Of a stretch of 64,000 nucleotides of DNA, positions 28,084 to 39,855 are shown piece after piece. The translations under genes and the position numbers were made by a program. The notes beneath the pieces were generated by a model, which did not search any database, was not told the DNA's origin, and saw nothing but the letters and a program-made list of their open reading frames with translations. This DNA is from Leptotrichia sp. OH3620_COT-345 (GTDB lineage Bacteria; Fusobacteriota; Fusobacteriia; Fusobacteriales; Leptotrichiaceae): NCBI RefSeq assembly GCF_003932895.1, contig NZ_RQYW01000005.1, forward strand, positions 1-64,000, written 5' to 3'. The number at the start of each line of letters is the position of its first letter. The first letter of the stretch is position 1.

Positions 28084-28244
28084 AAATATTTAGGTCAATT
28101 AATTTTGGAATTTTAGATTTAAAATCGAAACAAAAAAGATTTTTAAGTCATTAAAATAAAAGAAAATATGATTAAATGTATTTATATAAAATAAATTAAA
28201 ATATTAAAATAATGAATGTTTTTTAAAAAATCTTAAATCTGATA

Positions 28245-28272
28245 TTGACTTTGAATGAAAGTAGAGTATAAT
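28245..28272 (+). promoter_or_regulatory. Promoter of a candidate small RNA
   Basis: TTGACT (28245-28250), a 16-base spacer and TATAAT (28267-28272). No reading frame follows; a strong terminator lies about 90 bases downstream. Confidence 0.7.
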
Positions 28273-28279
28273 ACTATTG

Positions 28280-28393
28280 GGATTATAATTGTAATATAAA
28301 AATATTAAATTGATTATAAAAAGTCAAGGTATCAGATAAATTATACTAAAATGAAAATAACAGAAAAAGAGCCTTGAAAAGGGCTCTTTTTTT
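28280..28393 (+). ncRNA. Candidate small RNA of about 114 nt
   Basis: The stretch starts about 8 bases after a good -10 box and ends with a strong intrinsic terminator: a 10-bp stem AAAAAGAGCC (28364-28373) with GGCTCTTTTT (28382-28391), then further Ts. The only AUG (28351) opens an 8-codon frame. TCAAGG (28324-28329) can pair with CCTTGA (28372-28377), which includes two bases of the terminator stem, so two alternative folds compete. It could be a free regulatory RNA, or a conditional terminator for the csm operon more than 500 bases downstream. No known RNA family is recognised. Confidence 0.5.
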
Positions 28394-28951
28394 GAAGTTT
28401 GAGTAAAGTGAAAACATACTAAATATAAAATCAGTTGTATATTTTTCAAAGTTTTCAAAAAATATATAAATTAGGAACTGTTTTATAAATTAAAAATAGC
28501 ACATATTTAAAAAATTTCAAAGATATTACTTTCGTCGAAGATTATATAAAAAACAGAAATATGTAAAATTTATGATTTAGCACATTTTTGTGTTTTATAA
28601 GACAAAGTTAAAAGATTCAAATGAAATTCAATAACTACATTTCTTACAATATGGTTTATAACAGAACAGAGTTAAAATTTTTTTAACTTTAGTTTGTATA
28701 GAACTTCTATCTTTTAAGTTAAATAAATAATTACTTTATAAGATAAAATTACATAGAATAAAATAAAAAATATCATATCATCTAAAAAATAATAATAATT
28801 TAATATAAATAATTTGGAAATAATAAAAATAAATATAGTAAAATATTTTGTTAAAAAAATGAGGAAAAGAAAAAATTATAGGAGGTTAAAAAAACTTACA
28901 TATTATTTCTGAATTAATATAAATAAACTATATAAAGGAGGATTAAGAAAA
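28394..28951. other. Gap before the CRISPR operon, no array
   Basis: An AT-rich 558-base stretch. No regularly spaced direct repeats (CRISPR) are present. It contains a degenerate repeat at 28479-28579. A weak promoter for cas10 (TTGGAA 28814, TAAAAT 28839, 19-base spacer) is possible. Confidence 0.5.
28479..28579 (+). repeat. Degenerate dispersed repeat, copy upstream of the csm operon
   Basis: Its first end (GTTTTATAAATTAAAAATA) also occurs at 36297-36315. Its last part (TATAAAAAACAGAAATATGT, then AAAATTTATG) resembles the end of the 36297-36410 copy. The middle is not alike. Low-complexity AT sequence makes this uncertain. Confidence 0.35.
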
Positions 28952-31465
28952 GTGTATAAGTTTGAAAATATGGAACAAGTTGTCAGTTTAGCAGGATTAC
29001 TTCATGACTTGTACAAATCTGTAGATATGAACTGGAATTTTACTCACGTAGGTATAGAACAAAATAATAAAAATTCTGCTTCATCTGAAAAAATTATTTC
29101 TTTTTTAGAAAAAAAGATAGAGCCTTCAGATTTTCTTGAAAAGTTAAAAATAATTGTTTCGGACTATTATGAAGACATTGGTTTTAAAAATAAAAATTTA
29201 AAACAAATAAAAGGTATAATTTTAAAAGCAAGTGAATATTCTGCAAATGAAAGAAAAAAAGAACAGATGAAAGAAACTGATTTAAGAAGTAAACAGTTAA
29301 ATTCTATCTTTGAATCAATTTCAATAAGGGATAATAAAAGAAAAACAGCATCAGAAATGAAATACATGTATAAATTAGGAATAATATCTCCTGAAAACAT
29401 ATTTCCTGAAGAAGTAAAAAATGAAGGAAATATGAACTTTGAAGAAGATTTACATAAGCATATAGAAAACTTTTTTAAGGAAATGGAGGAAATTAAAGTA
29501 GAGAACTACTCCGCTTTTTATTCACAAATTTATACATTACTTGAAAAATATACATGGTGCATAGCTTTAGATACTCAGAATAAATCGTCAGATATTTCTT
29601 TATTTGATCATTTAAGAAATACTTCCGCATTAGCTCTTGCATCATATAAATATTATAAAGAGAAAGGATTACTCGATAAAGAAGAATGTTCTGAAGAAGA
29701 AAATCAATTTTTAGTAATAATAGGAGATATAAACGGAATACAGGACTTTATTTACGATGAAATGGAAATAGACGGAGCTGCAAAACTTTTAAGAGGAAGA
29801 TCATTTTTTGTTAAAATATTAAGTGACGTAATTTCATTATATTTAATTAAAGAACTGGAGCTTAACATTTCAAATATAGTGTTGACAGCGGGAGGCAAAT
29901 TTTATGTAATAGCCCCTAATACTCAAGAAACAAATGAGAAAATAAAAAAAATAAAGAAAAAATTAAATGATTATCTCTATAGAAGATTTTTCGGACAGTT
30001 ATTCGTAAATATAGTGACAGTTGAGTCAAACGGAAATGAAATATCTAAAAATTTTAATAAAATAATAGAATATTCAAATATTTTATTAGATGAAAATAAA
30101 AGTACAAAATTTTCAGAACAGATAATGGAAAATCCGGTATTTAATGTTGATTATTATGAGAGTGACGGAAGAAAAAGTACTGCAATAGACAGGTTAAATG
30201 AAGAATTGAAAAAAATGGGAGAAAAAATACCTAAATCTGAGTATATCGGTGTTATCTTTGACTCAGAAAAACTCAGTGAAGAAAGAAAAGAAACTTTTGA
30301 GATAATAGAAAATCTAAATATTAAATTCTTTAATAGAATAGAAATTAAAGAATACAAAGAAAAAGAGAAAATTGATATGTTGCTTTCATTGAATAACACT
30401 GAAATAATAAAGGGATATCCTATGATTTTCAGATTTACAAATAATTATACTCCAATGGAAAATAAAGTAATAAAAAGTTTTGATGATATATCCAAATCAG
30501 CAAAAGGGAATCAAAAAATAGCTGTTTATAAAGCTGATGTGGATAATTTGGGTATGATTTTCAGTATAGGACTGAAAGGGAATACTGAGTTAGACAAAGA
30601 ATATAATAAAAAAGTGAATTCTGAAAAAAAAGGAAAAACTGATTACAATTCACTTTCCAGAATAGCTACATTAAGCAGAAATATGGAATATTTTTTCTCG
30701 TATTGGCTAAATCAGGAGTTATCTAAACAAAATGAAGAAATTAAAATTAACGGGACTGAATATCTATTAGATTTTAAAGACATTTATGTTCTGTATTCAG
30801 GCGGAGACGATTTGATATTAATCGGATCTTGGGATAAAATTATATTTACAGCTTATTACATAAGAAAAAAATTTGAAGAGTATACTACAGAAAACGATAA
30901 TATAACTATTTCAGGAGGAATAGCGATAGTTCATCCTAAAATACAGATATCCCGTGGAGTTGATATTGCAAATGAACTTGAAGAAAAAGCCAAAGAAAGT
31001 AATGAAGATAAAGATTCATTGGCAATCTTCAATAAAGCTTTTAAATGGGAAAAATTTGAGGAGATATTCGGTTTTGCAGAACAATTGTTTAATATTGCAG
31101 TAAAAGAAGAAAATAATGCTCAGGAAAGTGATGTCCAGAATAAAAAAATATTAAGTCAGGGATTTCTATATAGAAATTATAGATATGTTAAAATGGCAGA
31201 AAAATTTTGGGAACAGTCAGAAAAAGGTAATCCGGATTTCAGATTACTGACATATATTTCAAAATTTGAATATGATTACGGAAGAAATATAAGAGAAAAA
31301 TTGGAAAAATTAAAAAAAGAAGAAATAAAAGAATTGATGAAAGTATACAAAGAACATTTTAATGAAGAAATAACAGAAAAAGCATTTATTAATAATTATA
31401 TGGGTATAGTGCTTAATTACGTATTAAATGCTAATCGGAAAAATAATAATAGAGAGGTGGAATAA
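28952..31465 (+). CDS. cas10: Type III-A CRISPR effector large subunit Cas10/Csm1
   Basis: The signature subunit of the Csm complex, 837 residues. An HD nuclease motif lies at His18-Asp19 (LAGLLHDLYK). The first palm domain begins around residue 258 (GDINGIQDFIYD). The catalytic GGDD is intact at 617-620 in LYSGGDDLILIG, so synthesis of cyclic oligoadenylates is expected when target RNA is bound. The C-terminal helical domain follows. The start is GTG 28952, with AAGGAGG 10 bases upstream. Its stop overlaps the csm2 start by one base. No csm6 or other CARF effector is seen in the window to receive the second messenger. Confidence 0.95.
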   Translation: MYKFENMEQVVSLAGLLHDLYKSVDMNWNFTHVGIEQNNKNSASSEKIISFLEKKIEPSDFLEKLKIIVSDYYEDIGFKNKNLKQIKGIILKASEYSANERKKEQMKETDLRSKQLNSIFESISIRDNKRKTASEMKYMYKLGIISPENIFPEEVKNEGNMNFEEDLHKHIENFFKEMEEIKVENYSAFYSQIYTLLEKYTWCIALDTQNKSSDISLFDHLRNTSALALASYKYYKEKGLLDKEECSEEENQFLVIIGDINGIQDFIYDEMEIDGAAKLLRGRSFFVKILSDVISLYLIKELELNISNIVLTAGGKFYVIAPNTQETNEKIKKIKKKLNDYLYRRFFGQLFVNIVTVESNGNEISKNFNKIIEYSNILLDENKSTKFSEQIMENPVFNVDYYESDGRKSTAIDRLNEELKKMGEKIPKSEYIGVIFDSEKLSEERKETFEIIENLNIKFFNRIEIKEYKEKEKIDMLLSLNNTEIIKGYPMIFRFTNNYTPMENKVIKSFDDISKSAKGNQKIAVYKADVDNLGMIFSIGLKGNTELDKEYNKKVNSEKKGKTDYNSLSRIATLSRNMEYFFSYWLNQELSKQNEEIKINGTEYLLDFKDIYVLYSGGDDLILIGSWDKIIFTAYYIRKKFEEYTTENDNITISGGIAIVHPKIQISRGVDIANELEEKAKESNEDKDSLAIFNKAFKWEKFEEIFGFAEQLFNIAVKEENNAQESDVQNKKILSQGFLYRNYRYVKMAEKFWEQSEKGNPDFRLLTYISKFEYDYGRNIREKLEKLKKEEIKELMKVYKEHFNEEITEKAFINNYMGIVLNYVLNANRKNNNREVE

Positions 31466-32049
31466 TGGATTTAAAAGGAAAAGGGAAAATAGATTTTAGA
31501 ACTTTAAACATTGAGAACTCTAATAATCAGAAAAATTTTCAACAAAATAAAAATAAACAACAACATTCAAATAATTCTGATAAAATTAGGAAAGAAATAG
31601 AAAATATAATACAAAAAATAAAAAAAGGGGGTTACAGAGATAAAGAAAAAGATATACTAAGAAAAGAATTGGTTTCAGAATATGCAAAAGAAATTGCTGA
31701 AAATTTGAAAATATCTACAAGCCAATTAAGAATATTTTTCAATGAATTAAAAAGGATAGAACTAAAATGTGAAACTAAAAATTCAGAAAATGATGAAAAT
31801 CTTAAAATTGATAAATTACATATAGAGTTATATATACTGAAGTCGAAATTAAAATATAAGGAAGGGACCAGAGAGAAAAAAGATGAAAAAAACTTTAAAG
31901 ACTTTTCTTATTTTATTCAGGAAAATATAGAAATAATAATAAAAGAAGAAGATATACAAAGTTTCAAAGATTTTATGGTTTTTTTTGAAACTGTAATTGG
32001 ATATATATACGGATTATCAAATAATCCCAAAAATAAACAAAAAAATTAG
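31465..32049 (+). CDS. csm2: Csm2 small subunit of the type III-A complex
   Basis: The alpha-helical small subunit that lines the crRNA-target duplex. It has 194 residues, longer than the common 120-160, because of a Lys/Asn/Gln-rich N-terminus (residues 18-40). The Csm2 core appears in AKEIAENLKISTSQLRIFF and in the later helices. AGAGGTGG precedes the ATG, and start and stop overlap with cas10. The identification rests on the core motif and its position between cas10 and csm3. Confidence 0.85.
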   Translation: MDLKGKGKIDFRTLNIENSNNQKNFQQNKNKQQHSNNSDKIRKEIENIIQKIKKGGYRDKEKDILRKELVSEYAKEIAENLKISTSQLRIFFNELKRIELKCETKNSENDENLKIDKLHIELYILKSKLKYKEGTREKKDEKNFKDFSYFIQENIEIIIKEEDIQSFKDFMVFFETVIGYIYGLSNNPKNKQKN

Positions 32050-32057
32050 GAGGAAAT

Positions 32058-32765
32058 ATGTCAGAATATAAATTAGAATCAATATATAAATTAAACGGAA
32101 AAATAAAGTTATTATCAGGGCTTCATATAGGAGGAAATGAAGCGGTAATAGAAATAGGAGGAAATGATAATCCTATTATAAGGGATATTTCAACAGGCGA
32201 TCCTTATATTCCGGGAAGCAGTTTAAAAGGAAAAATAAGATATCTGTTAGAATGGTATACAGGAAATATTAATTCTGACGGTTCGGTATTTTCTTCATTA
32301 AAAGAAGGAGAAAATATTAATATACTTTTAAACGTATTTGGAGGAACAGCAGGAGGAAATGGGAAAAATGGGCCTACAAGAATAACAGTTAAGGACAGCT
32401 TTCTATCCAATGAAGCACAAGGAAAATTAAAAGAAATAAAAGAAAGAACAGGGACTGATACTGAATTAAAAACAGAAAATAGTATAAATCGACTTAACTC
32501 ATCTGCAGTACCGAGATCTTTGGAAAGAGTTCCAAGAAATCTTGAGTTTGATTTTGAAATAGTTTATAAAGTTTTAAATATTGATGATAAAGAAAAAGTG
32601 AAAGAGTTGATTCTTAAAGGATTGAAACTTTTAGAAATTGAAGGAATAGGCGGCTCTGTTTCAAGGGGAAGCGGACAGATAGAAATAAAAGAGTTAAAAG
32701 TTACAAATCTATATGAAGGAACAGATGAAAAAATATCATTAAACAATATAAAGCTTGGAAAGTGA
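32058..32765 (+). CDS. csm3: Csm3 RAMP backbone subunit and target-RNA nuclease
   Basis: The repeated backbone subunit of the Csm complex, 235 residues. It carries the RAMP features SGLHIGGNEAVIEIGG and PYIPGSSLKGKIRYLLEW. The catalytic aspartate for target-RNA cleavage is most likely Asp37, in GGNDNPIIRD, so slicing every 6 nt is expected. A glycine-rich C-terminal loop (GIGGSVSRGSGQIE) is present. AGGAGG precedes the ATG. Confidence 0.95.
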   Translation: MSEYKLESIYKLNGKIKLLSGLHIGGNEAVIEIGGNDNPIIRDISTGDPYIPGSSLKGKIRYLLEWYTGNINSDGSVFSSLKEGENINILLNVFGGTAGGNGKNGPTRITVKDSFLSNEAQGKLKEIKERTGTDTELKTENSINRLNSSAVPRSLERVPRNLEFDFEIVYKVLNIDDKEKVKELILKGLKLLEIEGIGGSVSRGSGQIEIKELKVTNLYEGTDEKISLNNIKLGK

Positions 32766-32772
32766 GAGAGAG

Positions 32773-33828
32773 ATGACATATAAAATATGGAAAATAACGA
32801 TAGAGCCGAAAAGTTCCTTTGTTACTCCCTTACAGTCTGATACTTTGTTTGGAAGCATGATTTGGTCATTGAAAATACTATTCGGAAATGAAGTTGCTGA
32901 AAAAGCTGTTGCAGACACTAAAAATTATAATCCTCCATTTATATTTTCAAATGCTATTATAAATAATCAGTTTCCAATTTTTGGAAAATTAAGTGAAGAA
33001 TTTTATAGGAAAATTGATAATGAAATATTAAATGGTTATGATGTTGAAAAAATAGAATTTTATAAAGTAATTAGGAAGAAAAGTACGGTAGATAAAAAAG
33101 TATTCGGAGAACTTTTAAACGGAGTAAAACTGGAACAAATGTATTTTGATGTTTTAGAAGGAAAGAGAAAACTTTCTACATTGGAAAAAACTGATAAAAA
33201 AATTTCAGAGGGACAATATAGAAAATTTTTAAAAGAGATGTTTAAAGAAAATAAAGAAGAAGATTCAGTTAATAGACTTTTTGTAAAAACTTCAAGACTG
33301 AGAAACAGTATAAACAGATTAGGTAAATTGGATGAAGTAGAAAATGATACGAGACTGTTTGAACAAACAGAAATAGAGTATGGAAAAGAAACCAAAATTA
33401 CTATTTATGTAAAAATTAATGAAGAGTTTAATATGGACTATTTTGAAAAAGCTTTAGAATACATTGAACTTAATGGATATGGAGGAAAATCAAGCATAGG
33501 AAAAGGTCAGTTTAAAATAATTGAATTTAAAGAAGAAAAAGATTTTGAAGCAAGTAAAAATTCAAATGAATTTGTTGTTTTGTCCAATTATATACCGAAT
33601 ATTGAAGATAAAGTAAAAGTTTTAAATTCAAATATTTTTACAAAAAAGCCTAAAGCTTATATGACGGAAAATCCTTTTAAAGATTATTTTATATGTTACA
33701 AGGAAGGTTCTTATTTTGAAGGAAATTCTGAGAATATAAAAGGAAGAGTTTTAGATAATTTAAAAAAGGATGATAAAAAAAATATACAGTGTCTGATTCC
33801 ATTTGTACTGGGGGTGAAAAATCAATGA
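32773..33828 (+). CDS. csm4: Csm4 RAMP subunit
   Basis: The Csm4 subunit, 351 residues, binds the 5' tag of crRNA and contacts Cas10. The N-terminal FVTPLQSDTLFGSMIWSLK motif and the glycine-rich loop LNGYGGKSSIGKGQF are typical. I chose ATG 32773, eight bases after csm3, rather than TTG 32755, which overlaps csm3. The stop overlaps the csm5 start (ATGA). Confidence 0.88.
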   Translation: MTYKIWKITIEPKSSFVTPLQSDTLFGSMIWSLKILFGNEVAEKAVADTKNYNPPFIFSNAIINNQFPIFGKLSEEFYRKIDNEILNGYDVEKIEFYKVIRKKSTVDKKVFGELLNGVKLEQMYFDVLEGKRKLSTLEKTDKKISEGQYRKFLKEMFKENKEEDSVNRLFVKTSRLRNSINRLGKLDEVENDTRLFEQTEIEYGKETKITIYVKINEEFNMDYFEKALEYIELNGYGGKSSIGKGQFKIIEFKEEKDFEASKNSNEFVVLSNYIPNIEDKVKVLNSNIFTKKPKAYMTENPFKDYFICYKEGSYFEGNSENIKGRVLDNLKKDDKKNIQCLIPFVLGVKNQ

Positions 33829-35300
33829 GAAATGTAGCAGCAAGATATAATATTACACTGTATCCTCTAACTGATATATATATCGGAAGTGGAGAAGATA
33901 TAGAAGCATATGAATATACAGTAAAAAACGGATATTTATATAAGTTTGATATGTACAGCATTTATGATAAAATGTCCTCAGAAGAACAAAAAAATTTTAT
34001 TAATACAATAAAAAAAGAAAATTTTGTTCATATAAGAAGCTGGATTTATAAAAATTATGATGAAAAATGGGGATATATATATAAAGAAAAAGTATCGGAA
34101 GATTTTAAAAAGCTCTATTGCGAGAAAGTAACAGGAAAAGTTAAACAGAATGAAGGAAATCAGTTAAAAATAGCAAAATTTATCGAAGAACAAAGTGGAA
34201 AATATATTCCGGGAAGCAGTATAAAAGGTGCATTAAGGACAGCTTATATTTATGAAGAAATATTGAAATTATATAAAAATCAGAGATTAGAAAAAATTTA
34301 TGAAGAATACAATAGTACGATTAAAAATATTGAATATGAAGAATTTACAGAAATTACAGAAAATTTTATAAAAAGGGTAACTGAAAATGATAAGGAATTA
34401 AAAAAATATGAGAATATTTTTAGGGTACTTTTGTTATTATTCAAAGAAAATGAATATTTAAAAGAAATAGAAAAATTAAAAAAGGAAAAAGAAACTAAAC
34501 TAGAAGAAATACAGAATGAAAAAGATTTCAAAAATAGAAAATTGAAAATAGAAGAAATAAAAAATAAATTTACAGAAAAGGAAAAAGAAATAAAGAAAAA
34601 AATTTTAAATCTCAATTTAAAAAAATCGAAAAAATTATTTGAAGCTGAAATTCTAAAAGCCCGAAAAAAAGACGGGAAATTAGGATTAGAACCTAAAAAA
34701 GACCCATTTAGAATGTTAAAAATTACAGATTCGAATACAATTGATTTAGAAAATTTTAAAGTTGTAATAGAAAAAGCAAACTTAAAACAGAATGAAAGTA
34801 GTAATGATACTATAAATATTGCATTGGAAATCTTAAACGGTAAAATGAGTATTTTATTCAATAGAGAATATGAATTAGTTAAAGATGATAAATTCATTGA
34901 AATAATAAATGATAAAACTGTTTTATTTAGTATGGTTTTATCCAATTATTTATTTAAACCGGAAGATAAAGCAAAAAACAAAATTGAAAAAAATATAAAT
35001 AAAAATAATTTGTTTCGTTCTTTAAGAAGAAAGTATGTTCAGTTTATTTCAAAAATAATAGAAGAAATTAAAGATGATGATTTAAAAAAATTTTATTTAA
35101 AATTACAGAAAATACAGGAAAAAATAGAAAAATTCGAAAATATTTATTTAATAAGATTAGGAAAGTATACAAAATACAATGATAAAACAATAAATTTTTT
35201 AACGAATAATCCGTTAATAAAGTTAGGAGAGACTAAAGACAGCAATGGTTGTCCTATGGGTTGGGCATTAATAAAAGTGGAAGAGGTTAAAGATGAATAG
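33825..35300 (+). CDS. csm5: Csm5 RAMP subunit with a long charged insertion
   Basis: Csm5 caps the 3' side of the crRNA and recruits trimming nucleases. RAMP features: LTDIYIGSGEDIEAYEY near the N-terminus, KYIPGSSIKGALRTAYIYEE near residue 125, and the C-terminal GCPMGWALIKVEE. It has 491 residues, well above the usual 340-390. The excess is a Lys/Glu-rich, coiled-coil-like block at about 195-275 (EIEKLKKEKETKLEEI and following). ATG 33825 overlaps the csm4 stop by four bases and has a GGGGGTGA ribosome binding site. The earlier in-frame codon at 33789 lies inside csm4. Confidence 0.9.
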   Translation: MRNVAARYNITLYPLTDIYIGSGEDIEAYEYTVKNGYLYKFDMYSIYDKMSSEEQKNFINTIKKENFVHIRSWIYKNYDEKWGYIYKEKVSEDFKKLYCEKVTGKVKQNEGNQLKIAKFIEEQSGKYIPGSSIKGALRTAYIYEEILKLYKNQRLEKIYEEYNSTIKNIEYEEFTEITENFIKRVTENDKELKKYENIFRVLLLLFKENEYLKEIEKLKKEKETKLEEIQNEKDFKNRKLKIEEIKNKFTEKEKEIKKKILNLNLKKSKKLFEAEILKARKKDGKLGLEPKKDPFRMLKITDSNTIDLENFKVVIEKANLKQNESSNDTINIALEILNGKMSILFNREYELVKDDKFIEIINDKTVLFSMVLSNYLFKPEDKAKNKIEKNINKNNLFRSLRRKYVQFISKIIEEIKDDDLKKFYLKLQKIQEKIEKFENIYLIRLGKYTKYNDKTINFLTNNPLIKLGETKDSNGCPMGWALIKVEEVKDE

Positions 35301-36039
35301 CTTTTTAATATCTTTATCTCCAATACAGGATATCTATATAAAAGAAGAAGTATACGGTAAAAAGATATATCAGGCTTTAAATGATATTTTTCCTGATATA
35401 CACGGAGTTTTCAGAGTTTCTTCTTTTTTCGGATATTTTTTTGAAAATGAATTTATGCTTGAAAAAGAAAAAAGTTATAAAATAATGATGACAATAAAAG
35501 CTCCGGAATATTTTCCTTCTTTAATTCAGAAATTGTTTAGAAAAGCTTTGAATAAGGAAACAATTATTATTGGTGAAAATGAATTTATAATTAAAGGAAT
35601 AGTTTCAAGTGACAAAACATGGACAGGACATTATAATTTTAAAAATATTATGGAACAGGAAACAGAAGATTTAAAAGATAATCTTAAAATAAAAATATTG
35701 ACTCCGATACTTTCAGAAAAAAAAATTGAAAATAAATTTGTATTCGGGTTTGATGAAATATTTTTTGAAATTTTAAGTAATTTTGAAAAATACAGTAGTG
35801 AGAATTTTAATTATTTGAAAAATGAAAAAAATGAAATATTTTTAGTAAAGCAGGAAAAATATTATACGAAAAAAATAATAATTGAAAACGTATTGAAAAA
35901 TTCTTATTTAGGAGAAATTGATATTTTTATTCAGGAAAATGAGTATAAAAATTTAATACATTCTATTTTTCAATTTTCAAGATTTAATGGGATAGGAAAA
36001 ATGGCAGAATACGGATTTGGTCAGATATTACTGTTATAA
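35293..36039 (+). CDS. cas6: Cas6 crRNA endonuclease of the type III-A operon
   Basis: A 248-residue Cas6-family RAMP protein that cuts precursor crRNA within the repeat. The glycine-rich C-terminal loop FNGIGKMAEYGFG is diagnostic. His37 in DIFPDIHGVFRVSSFF is a candidate catalytic residue by position. It overlaps csm5 by eight bases and ends the main effector operon. No repeat-spacer array lies nearby, so it must act on arrays encoded elsewhere. Confidence 0.88.
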   Translation: MNSFLISLSPIQDIYIKEEVYGKKIYQALNDIFPDIHGVFRVSSFFGYFFENEFMLEKEKSYKIMMTIKAPEYFPSLIQKLFRKALNKETIIIGENEFIIKGIVSSDKTWTGHYNFKNIMEQETEDLKDNLKIKILTPILSEKKIENKFVFGFDEIFFEILSNFEKYSSENFNYLKNEKNEIFLVKQEKYYTKKIIIENVLKNSYLGEIDIFIQENEYKNLIHSIFQFSRFNGIGKMAEYGFGQILLL

Positions 36040-36112
36040 TTTAATGGTATAACAGATTTAGGAACATAAAATCGCTATAGAGGAAAAAGTAAATTTAATG
36101 TACAAAGAATTA

Positions 36113-36261
36113 GGGTGTGTCTGAAAACTGTCAAAATAAGGAATTTTAACGAATATTCTAGAATTTTTAAATAACAGGGTAGCAGTTTTATTATAATTCT
36201 GCTAATTTAAAAAGTAAAAAAATATTGAAAATATCGCAAATTTTAACTTTTCAGACGTATT
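36113..36261 (+). mobile_element. MITE-like element, copy 1 (right end degraded)
   Basis: It begins GGGTGTGTCTGAAAACTGTC and ends TTTTAACTTTTCAGACG, where the last bases of the terminal repeat are lost. The interior matches the reverse complement of the copy at 37237-37391, including AAATAACAG and AATTT(T)AAAAAGTAAAAAAATATT. No transposase is encoded. Confidence 0.75.
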
Positions 36262-36296
36262 TTAATTAAAAACTTTAAAAAGCGGCAGTTGCGGCA

Positions 36297-36410
36297 GTTT
36301 TATAAATTAAAAATAAATCTTTGACCATAATGAAATACATATTTTTAAAAATTATAAGATGCTATTTTTATTGGTTTTATAAAAAAGAAAATATTTAAAA
36401 TTTATGTTTT
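36297..36410 (+). repeat. Degenerate dispersed repeat, copy downstream of the csm operon
   Basis: It starts GTTTTATAAATTAAAAATA and ends with ATAAAAAAGAAAATATTTAA then AATTTATG, as does the copy at 28479-28579. The csm operon lies between the two copies, which have the same orientation. Confidence 0.35.
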
Positions 36411-36455
36411 TTCCTATTTTAATTAAGAGAATACAGCTATAAAACAGGAGTTAAA

Positions 36456-37100
36456 ATGAAATATTCTATTTTGAAGTTTAAAGGAAACAAAAAATATAAA
36501 ATAAAAGATTTGGAGAAACTGAAAGAATTTTTATCCTTAAAATATAAGGAAAAAGCAGAAATTTATAATTATCTGTCAGAAAAATCTGAAGTTTCGCATG
36601 ATAAATTACAGTATAAACTGATAAAAAATAATTTGTCGGTTATGACTGTTGGAGAAGCAGTTAAAATAAATATGAAACTATTTGAAGAAGCTGAATATCC
36701 GGATATTGACGGAAATATTTACTCTGATGCGGAAAAGGAAATTCAGATAATAAATGAAGAAATTTCATATTCTCAGGATATAATGTATAATTATAAATTT
36801 GTTACTCCGTATCTGCCTTTAAACGAAGATAATTTTAGAAAATATTTGAGAGGAGAATATACTTTAAATGAAGTTATCAGAGAAAATATAACGGAAGTTT
36901 TAAAAGAGTTTGCAATAAATCTTGAAGAAAATCAGAAAATATACATTGAACAGAGTCTCTGGATAACTTCGGAAAATTTAAGAAATTTTGATATGATAAC
37001 TTTTTTGGGAGAATTTTCGACCAATGTAAAACTTCCTGATTATTTTTCATTGGGAAGAAAGAAAGACATAGGATATGGGACATTTATAAACATTATATAA
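36456..37100 (+). CDS. Cas6b-like RAMP endonuclease, second Cas6
   Basis: A 214-residue protein I assign to the Cas6b type. The N-terminal half has the pattern SHDKLQYKLIKNNLSVMTVG with a following EA, as in Cas6b proteins. The C-terminus has LPDYFSLGRKKDIGYGTF, the glycine-rich end of the family. His48 is the only histidine in the protein and lies where Cas6b has a conserved one, so it is the likely catalytic residue. It is 416 bases beyond cas6 and bracketed by two inverted MITE copies. It probably processes repeats of a different CRISPR type. The family call is from memory of the motif. Confidence 0.6.
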   Translation: MKYSILKFKGNKKYKIKDLEKLKEFLSLKYKEKAEIYNYLSEKSEVSHDKLQYKLIKNNLSVMTVGEAVKINMKLFEEAEYPDIDGNIYSDAEKEIQIINEEISYSQDIMYNYKFVTPYLPLNEDNFRKYLRGEYTLNEVIRENITEVLKEFAINLEENQKIYIEQSLWITSENLRNFDMITFLGEFSTNVKLPDYFSLGRKKDIGYGTFINII

Positions 37101-37236
37101 TATTGAATTAAATAATATATACCAAACATACCAAAACTATGTAAAACTTCAATATGAAAAGGAGCTGTCTTAATATTTAAGTAAAAATAAATAAGTGAAA
37201 ACAACTCTTAAAACTAAAAACAATATATTTTTATTA

Positions 37237-37391
37237 GGGTGTGTCTGACAACTTAAAATTTATGATATTTTAAATATTTTTTTACTTTTTAAAATTAACG
37301 GAGCTATGATAAAACTAATATTCTGTTATTTATAACTTTTAAGATGTTTTTTTAAATTTATCATTTTGAGAGTTTTCAGACACACCCCAGC
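37237..37391 (-). mobile_element. MITE-like element, copy 2 (inverted)
   Basis: An approximately 151-bp element with terminal inverted repeats: GGGTGTGTCTGA at the left and TTTTCAGACACACCC at the right. A 7-bp direct repeat TTTATTA flanks it (37230-37236 and 37392-37398), a possible target-site duplication, although in AT-rich DNA chance is not excluded. It is oriented opposite to copy 1. The rest of the gap 37101-37719 holds the pnp promoter and leader. Confidence 0.8.
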
Positions 37392-37553
37392 TTTATTAAA
37401 ATAATAAAACTATATAAATTTATTTTAATATACTTTTTATTTTATAGGCAGCTTCGATATTAATATTTAAATGTTGAATTTTAAAAGATAAAACAACAGT
37501 TTTAAACTATACGATATGTCAAACTTGATAACAGGCAATATTTATATAATATA

Positions 37554-37582
37554 TTGTAAAAGTCCTTTAAAAATGCTATAAT
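37554..37582 (+). promoter_or_regulatory. Promoter of pnp
   Basis: TTGTAA (37554-37559), a 17-base spacer and a perfect TATAAT (37577-37582). It would give a leader of about 130 nt before pnp. Confidence 0.75.
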
Positions 37583-37591
37583 CATTAAAGA

Positions 37592-37690
37592 TTTCAGGGA
37601 GGTATCAGAGTAAGTAATTGTAAAGATTTTTATTTATATCAGTTAAAAATTGAGTAGAAGTTTTTACTATTATTTGCTCCCTTCCTGAAA
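37592..37690 (+). promoter_or_regulatory. 5' leader hairpin of pnp
   Basis: TTTCAGGGAGG (37592-37602) pairs over 11 positions (one G-U) with CCTTCCTGAAA (37680-37690), closing a loop of about 77 nt just upstream of the pnp ribosome binding site. In E. coli a comparable long leader stem lets PNPase and RNase III control pnp mRNA. The same role here is inference. Confidence 0.6.
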
Positions 37691-37719
37691 TAGTCAAAAG
37701 AAAACTTTAGGAGGAGAAA

Positions 37720-39855
37720 ATGTTTAATGAAAGAACTTACGGGTTCAATTTAGGAACACAGCAGGTTAAATTAAGTACGGGAAAAATAGCAAGACAGGCA
37801 GGAGGTTCTGTAATAGTAAGATGCGGTGGTACCGTATTGCTAGTTACTGCCACAAGAAGTAAAGATGTAAAAGAAGGTCAGGACTTTTTTCCGCTGACTG
37901 TAGATTATATTGAAAAATTTTATGCTTCGGGAAAATTTCCGGGAGGATTTATAAAGAGAGAATCAAGACCTTCAACAGACGAAATTTTAATATCAAGACT
38001 GGTAGACAGACCGATAAGACCTTTATTTCCGGAAGGATTTTTAAATGCCGTTCATATTGTTATTACCGTAGTTTCATATGATGAAATAAATCAGCCTGAA
38101 AATCTGGCAACAATAGGAGTTTCGACTGCATTGGGATTATCTGATATTCCTTTTGCGGGGACAGTGGCAGGAGTGACTGTGGGGTACATTGACGGAAAGT
38201 ATATTTTAAATCCAACTGCCGAAGAACTGGAAAAAAGTGAAATACATTTGTCAGTTGCAGGGACCAAAGATGCAGTTACAATGGTTGAAGCAGGGGCAAA
38301 GGAAGTATCCGAAGAAATTATGCTTGAAGGGATAATGTTCGGTCATGAGAAAATAAAGGAAATATGTGCTGAACAGGATAAATTCCTGTCTCAGTTTGAT
38401 GTCCAGAAATATGAGTTTGAGAAAAAGGAAGTGGATACCGAAATCAAATCATTTATAGATGAATTTGAAAAAACAGTGGAAGAAGCGGTTATGACTCCGG
38501 GGAAATTGGAAAAATATGAAGCTATTGATAATCTTGAAACGGAGCTTTTGGAAAAATATATTGTCAAACTTGAAAGTGAAGGAAAAGAAACAGATGAAAG
38601 CCTGGAAAAGGAATTTAAAAATTATTATAGGGAAATAGAGAAAAAAGTTGTAAGAGATGCCATTCTATATAAAAAATACAGAGTTGACGGAAGAAATACA
38701 ACAGAAATAAGACCTCTTGATGTGGAAATAGACACTTTGCCTATACCTCACGGTTCGGCACTATTTACAAGGGGAGAAACACAGGCGTTAGTAACGGTGA
38801 CCCTAGGAAGTAAGACAGATGAGCAGATTGTAGATGGTATGGAAGATGAATCCAGAAAAAAATTCTTTTTACATTATAATTTTCCTCCTTATTCAGTAGG
38901 AGAAGCAGGATTTTTAAGAGCTCCGGGAAGAAGAGAATTGGGACATGGGAATCTTGCCGAAAGAGCATTAAAGTATGTAATGCCTGATCAGGAAGTGTTT
39001 CCTTATACTGTCAGACTGGTTTCGGAAATTACCGAGTCAAACGGTTCATCTTCTCAAGCAAGTATATGTGGCGGCTCTCTTGCACTTATGGCGGCGGGAG
39101 TCCCTATAAAATCCACGGTAGCAGGAATTGCTATGGGATTAATAAAAGAAGGGGATACATTTACAGTATTGACTGATATTCAAGGGCTTGAAGACCATCT
39201 GGGGGATATGGACTTCAAGGTTGCAGGGACAAAAAAAGGGATAACTGCTATCCAGATGGATATTAAAATAGAAGGAATTACAAAGGATATAATGGAAGTA
39301 GCTTTAAAACAGGCATTACAGGGAAGATATTTTATAATTGAAAAAATGGAAGAAGTGATAAGTGAACCGAGACCTGAAGTTGCAGAAAATGCACCGAAAA
39401 TTGAATTGATGAAAATAGATCCTTCAAAAATAGCAGGATTGATAGGTCCTGCAGGAAAAGTTATAAAAGCAATAATTGAAGAAACAGGAGTTTCCATTGA
39501 TATAGAAGATGATGGAAGCGTGTCAATATTCGGAAAAGATCCTGAAATGATGAGAAAAGCTATAGAGCTTGTAAAAAGACAGACACAATCTGTTGAAATG
39601 AATGAAACATATAACGGGAAAGTTACAAAACTGACTAAATTCGGAGCATTTGTGGAAGTTCTTCCGGGGAAAGAAGGACTGCTTCATATTTCTGAAATAA
39701 GTCATAAAAGAGTAGGAAAAGTAGAAGATGTGCTAAAAGAGGGTCAGGAGGTAAAAGTAAAAGTAATATCAATGGAAGACGAAAATAAGTTTAACCTCAG
39801 TATGAAAGCTTTAATTTCCAAAGAAGAAGGTGTTAAAAATGAATCTACCAAATAA
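37720..39855 (+). CDS. pnp: Polyribonucleotide nucleotidyltransferase (PNPase)
   Basis: A 3'-to-5' phosphorolytic exoribonuclease of the RNA degradosome, 711 residues, the usual length. Domain order: first RNase PH domain (about 10-145), an all-helical linker (about 150-300), second RNase PH domain (about 310-540, with [15 protein letters not shown]), KH domain (about 560-615, [15 protein letters not shown]), and S1 domain (about 622-692, [16 protein letters not shown]). GGAGGAG precedes the ATG. It overlaps pgsA by 17 bases. Confidence 0.98.

Follow-up and report, generated by a model that had tools for sequence, protein, structure and literature searches.

Two IS5-type miniature elements probably inserted independently beside a native cas6b gene at a Leptotrichia type III-A CRISPR locus

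Results

The window analysed here, a stretch of DNA of 64 kb, carries the effector genes of a type III-A CRISPR locus followed by two cas6 genes and pnp, with the second cas6 gene lying between two MITEs (Table 1). The first cas6 stands directly after csm5, and its product matches the CRISPR_Cas6 model at 1.9e-4, slightly under the curated cut-off. An earlier note on this DNA had described the gene between the elements as a second, Cas6b-like Cas6 and as the only gene there, and both descriptions hold. The only plus-strand open reading frame of at least 60 aa in the interval is cas6b, and a 68-aa minus-strand frame sits inside it. The predicted product is a clear Cas6b, with matches to Cas6b_C (1.5e-20) and Cas6b_N (2.3e-07) that are both over the cut-off, and a match to the Cas6b structure in PDB entry 4z7k (E 2.8e-11). 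The gene is single-copy in the window's genome.

Neither cas1 nor cas2 nor a CRISPR array was found in the window, and no type III-style repeat array was found in the assembly of 247 contigs when the repeat-end pattern of the array of a relative (G012) was used. Guide RNAs would therefore be provided in trans or from unassembled sequence. Arrays in the same genome (G000) adjoin cas1 genes on contigs C14 and C8 (loci L170 and L171). The C14 locus combines an array with an I-B-like gene order; the second cas1 locus, on C8, likewise has an array and neighbours a 1508-aa open reading frame the size of Cas9, the types being read from gene size and order only.

Table 1. Coordinates of the features at the locus, in window positions. 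A slash marks the boundary of an element.
Feature	Position	Strand	Remarks
csm1(cas10)-csm2-csm3-csm4-csm5	28952..35300	+	Type III-A effector genes
csm2	31465-32049	+	Assigned by position and homology to Leptotrichia operons
First cas6 (PF10040-like)	35293..36039	+	Final csm-operon gene before MITE1
MITE1 TA target duplication, left copy	36111..36112		Context TTA/GGG; matches the YTA/element/TAR setting of 19 G018 copies (IS and MITE)
MITE1	36113..36262	-	150 bp; intact terminal repeat on the outer (left) side, decayed one on the inner (right)
MITE1 TA target duplication, right copy	36263..36264		Context /TAA
cas6b	36456..37100	+	214 aa, intact; motif IYNY in active-site region
Site of the sister species' separate MITE	37177..37180		Empty in the window, reads ATATTTAAGTAA
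MITE2	37237..37387	+	151 bp; intact repeats at both ends, the inner with one A>C change
csm1-to-cas6b block plus both MITEs	28085..37543		Absent from congener G002, where the opuC-type gene and pnp remain
pnp	37720..39855	+	Conserved right-hand neighbour

The two inverted elements of about 150 bp with shared ends, as previously described, were found again at the limits given in Table 1. The sequence GGGTGTGTCTGA occurs in the window at 36113 (plus), 37237 (plus) and 37376-37387 (minus), all at MITE1 and MITE2, and these are the only three sites in the whole 2.5-Mb genome; 0.03 sites are expected by chance in the window with one mismatch permitted. The outer ends form inverted repeats, as claimed, with 17 identical bases (GGGTGTGTCTGAAAACT), and the outer ends of the whole MITE1-cas6b-MITE2 unit appear intact. 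The copy reported to have a decayed inner end is MITE1, which reads GACGTATTT where GACACACCC is expected and still continues into TAA, half a YTAR target. MITE2 is flanked by TTA/.../CAG, a target with one base changed, and is predicted to fold well above shuffled DNA (z -4.7). Over the full element length the two are 76% identical, with short identical runs; MITE2 and the reverse complement of MITE1 are 81% identical over the part aligned by BLAST. Best matches elsewhere reach 82% for MITE1 and 79% for MITE2, so that each is nearer other copies than its partner.

A DNA search recovered five clear copies of the family in the window's genome (C5:36113, C5:37237, C5:80933, C5:146837 and C11:43911), and the three outside the window are all intergenic. 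Members of the family turned up in 11 of 60 relatives, spanning two genera of the Leptotrichiaceae, with at least 14 copies each in G001 and G018. In G018, a relative from another genus, six elements of ~943 bp have ends in common with 13 short ones of 129-149 bp, the MITE and IS ends being ~85-88% identical over about 40-50 bp. All 19 copies printed lie in a YTA/element/TAR context, single-base variants of the outer letter allowed, and YTAR is the reported target site motif of IS5 (PMC10359306). The ~943-bp elements encode two adjoining open reading frames matching DUF4096 and DDE_Tnp_1, by which they are IS5-family elements with a transposase predicted to be intact. Dispersed copies, terminal inverted repeats, YTAR sites and this full-length partner all bear out the earlier identification of the elements as MITEs, and both things that the note had proposed to look for in genomes of the genus, the 150-bp element and a transposase with the same ends, were found in relatives.

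No intact transposase of the IS5 type was found among the 247 contigs of the window's genome. Remnants at C2:160219-160467 comprise an ORFA fragment of ~41 aa and an ORFB fragment of 43 aa with stops. Since these fragments are broken, the MITE family is probably inactive and immobile in this genome now, as judged from an assembly of 247 contigs. A cognate transposase in the same genome is not essential for an old MITE.

The position of cas6b was compared across the family. In three other species (G024, G029 and G012) the order is csm1-csm2-csm3-csm4-csm5-cas6-cas6b, with a cas6-cas6b gap of about 63 bp and no MITE. A fourth species, G026, retains the csm1-5-cas6-cas6b order, also without a MITE, and its cas6b is broken by stops. 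In three further species, G031, G018 and G028, cas6b is the last gene behind a type III-D operon (Csx10-, Csx7- and TIGR03986-like genes). In this family, type III operons ancestrally end with cas6b, free of flanking MITEs. In the window, the cas6-cas6b gap measures 416 bp, widened by MITE1 and sequence near it. The gene cas6b points the same way as csm and pnp, an orientation that it has in all relatives. No cas6b was found on phages, and plasmids gave only two distant matches, from Runella (24% identity).

The sister species (L077, on G001:C104) encodes a Cas6b with 93% protein identity to that of the window. Its cas6b adjoins pnp, colinear with the window, and the window's MITE2 site is empty there while cas6b is in place. 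There cas6b closes a type III-D operon, with a III-D gene and no MITE upstream of it. A different MITE (about 2338-2454 of L077) is inserted 59 bp upstream of the MITE2 site, and the corresponding site of the window is empty. Because each of the two species holds an empty site for the insertion of the other, the cas6b-pnp adjacency predates both insertions. In G002, a further member of the genus, the opuC-type gene and pnp are both present, and the whole csm-cas6b block of ~9.4 kb is missing. These empty-site comparisons are between species. From the sequences compared, the variable unit at the opuC-pnp locus is evidently the whole CRISPR block and not the MITE-cas6b-MITE piece. The earlier note had proposed to look for strains with an empty site: the sister species lacks MITE2, but what G002 lacks is the block and not the exact unit.

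Divergence between the window and the sister species is uneven, with dS values of 0.13 for cas6b, 0.36 for pnp and 1.0 for dgt. Identity at third codon positions stays high through cas6b and the 5' half of pnp, then falls off downstream. The stretch of low divergence, window positions 36426-38700, runs across MITE2 into pnp. Its low synonymous divergence suggests a recent recombination tract, which would fit homologous exchange anchored in pnp rather than a movement bounded by the MITEs, as far as one genome pair can indicate.

The Cas6b of the window (36564-36572, residues 37-39) and of the sister species reads IYNY, whereas FHNH or FHHH stands in all 14 other homologues that cover this region, with identities as low as about 28%; the sister species appears under two locus ids in this alignment, and the region lies outside the broken copy of G026. 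In the window's genus, tyrosines stand at both histidine positions of the active-site region (HNH to YNY). Y37 and Y39 of the window's Cas6b face H38 and H40 in the alignment with 4z7k, in agreement with what we take to be the catalytic histidines of Methanococcus maripaludis Cas6b (H38 and H40). Two histidines of the M. maripaludis protein have been implicated in catalysis (PMC3652601). Between the window and the sister species, dN/dS of cas6b is about 0.28, which suggests that the gene is still under constraint in this genus. The family assignment of the protein follows from its Cas6b_N and Cas6b_C domains and not from the histidines. The companion Cas6 has a tyrosine (KIYQAL) where most homologues have a histidine (KIHEAF), a position at which the histidine is not strictly conserved in its family.

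Discussion

We consider it highly probable (about 0.94) that the MITEs inserted independently beside a native cas6b, and that their position around it is coincidental rather than the mark of a jumping CRISPR cassette. Two non-autonomous IS5-family MITEs would have entered AT-rich intergenic YTAR sites flanking cas6b at different times, presumably mobilised in trans by a transposase of the IS5 family, such as the one that G018 retains intact. As its place in the operons of relatives shows, cas6b is the native last gene of the type III-A (csm) operon; the MITEs would neither have brought it nor carry it, and both would have decayed since. At the opuC-pnp locus, gain, loss and exchange would instead have affected the csm module and cas6b together, as one block.

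The proximity of the two elements invites other explanations. For five copies, the chance of a pair within 1.2 kb is ~0.017 if only intergenic YTAR sites are counted and ~0.010 if all YTAR sites are, in a rough model that tiles the 64-kb window. Clustering of this kind, in about 1-2% of genomes with five copies, is mildly unusual but not striking, and does not require a mechanism. Together with the third insertion, that of the sister species, in the same intergenic stretch, the close pair may reflect a local preference or tolerance.

It would also be compatible with MITEs that arrived separately and were then kept for effects on expression, MITE1 uncoupling cas6b from the csm transcript through a hairpin or promoter and MITE2 insulating pnp. 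The widening of the cas6-cas6b gap from about 63 to 416 bp and the predicted folding of MITE2 point in this direction. However, promoter-like matches have a high chance background, no terminator-like site was found, terminal repeats suffice to explain the folding, and the inner end of MITE1 is decayed. We therefore regard such a role as unlikely.

The earlier note had read the unit as a composite transposon carrying a CRISPR nuclease, that is, as a MITE-flanked mobile cassette of the TIME-driven composite or MIC-like kind that brought cas6b into the locus. As in TIME and MIC composites, two inverted miniature elements surround a single gene, and TIMEs have been shown to mobilise the DNA lying between them (PMC4133298). 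The outer ends share 17 identical bases and seem intact, so that later mobilisation by an incoming transposase may be physically possible. Unlike in those composites, the interior bears no sign of having moved with its ends and cas6b is native to the site. The gene occupies the same operon position in MITE-free species, its adjacency to pnp is older than MITE2, and G002 misses the whole block. Moreover, the two elements are unlike each other, and the genome holds one cas6b and no intact IS5-type transposase that we could find. Among the 60 relatives searched for the MITE family, no other genome examined has cas6b with MITEs on both sides, which by the earlier note's own test largely refutes the composite; the sole other linkage is the single MITE downstream of cas6b in the sister species, at a different site. 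Capture of cas6b by a composite transposon was rejected on operon conservation, the empty sites and the whole-block absence in G002, and we give this reading very little weight. The idea of a jumping cas6b is thereby cleared away. That inverted repeats 1 kb apart let homologous recombination flip or rearrange cas6b is less credible still, as the gene has the orientation found in all relatives and the repeats match at no more than 76%, sharing short identical stretches.

Seen as independent insertions, the MITEs of the window resemble known IS5-family systems in their terminal repeats, their YTAR target and their ~943-bp DUF4096 and DDE_Tnp_1 partner in G018. In contrast to such systems, the window's genome has transposase fragments only, and its MITE copies are old and have diverged. 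Both IS and MITEs have been reported to insert into cas loci (PMC10359306), and here MITEs likewise landed in a cas locus; however, those of the window are intergenic and the cas genes intact. As a mobile-element finding this is unremarkable: the Leptotrichiaceae have a MITE family that belongs to an IS5-type element. A literature search for MITEs in Leptotrichia gave no description.

The change in the active-site region of Cas6b in this genus may matter more than the mobile elements. A Sulfolobus Cas6 functions without the usual histidine (PMC3652601), so that a loss of activity cannot be assumed. Tentatively, and with somewhat less than even odds, the YNY Cas6b, together with a companion Cas6 that lacks a conserved histidine, could serve this type III locus, which has two Cas6 proteins, as a non-catalytic subunit for repeat binding and crRNA loading, or could have an active site built on tyrosine. 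The genus may offer a test of whether a second Cas6 needs catalysis.

Type III-A and III-D loci of Leptotrichia have been described (PMC6914741). The window shares the csm1-5 operon with them, and relatives have the alternative, a III-D operon; it differs in having no cas1, cas2 or array, in the MITEs around cas6b and in the changed active-site region of Cas6b. Of some value is the finding that III-A and III-D effector modules are interchangeable in front of cas6b, which itself keeps a fixed place as the last gene. In a comparison of the window (28085-37543) with L077 and L078-L084, III-A and III-D modules alternate upstream of cas6b in this family, also within the window's genus, where two species differ in this way at the opuC-pnp locus. 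Between the window and the sister species, the switch point from III-A to III-D lies ~30 bp before the start of cas6b.
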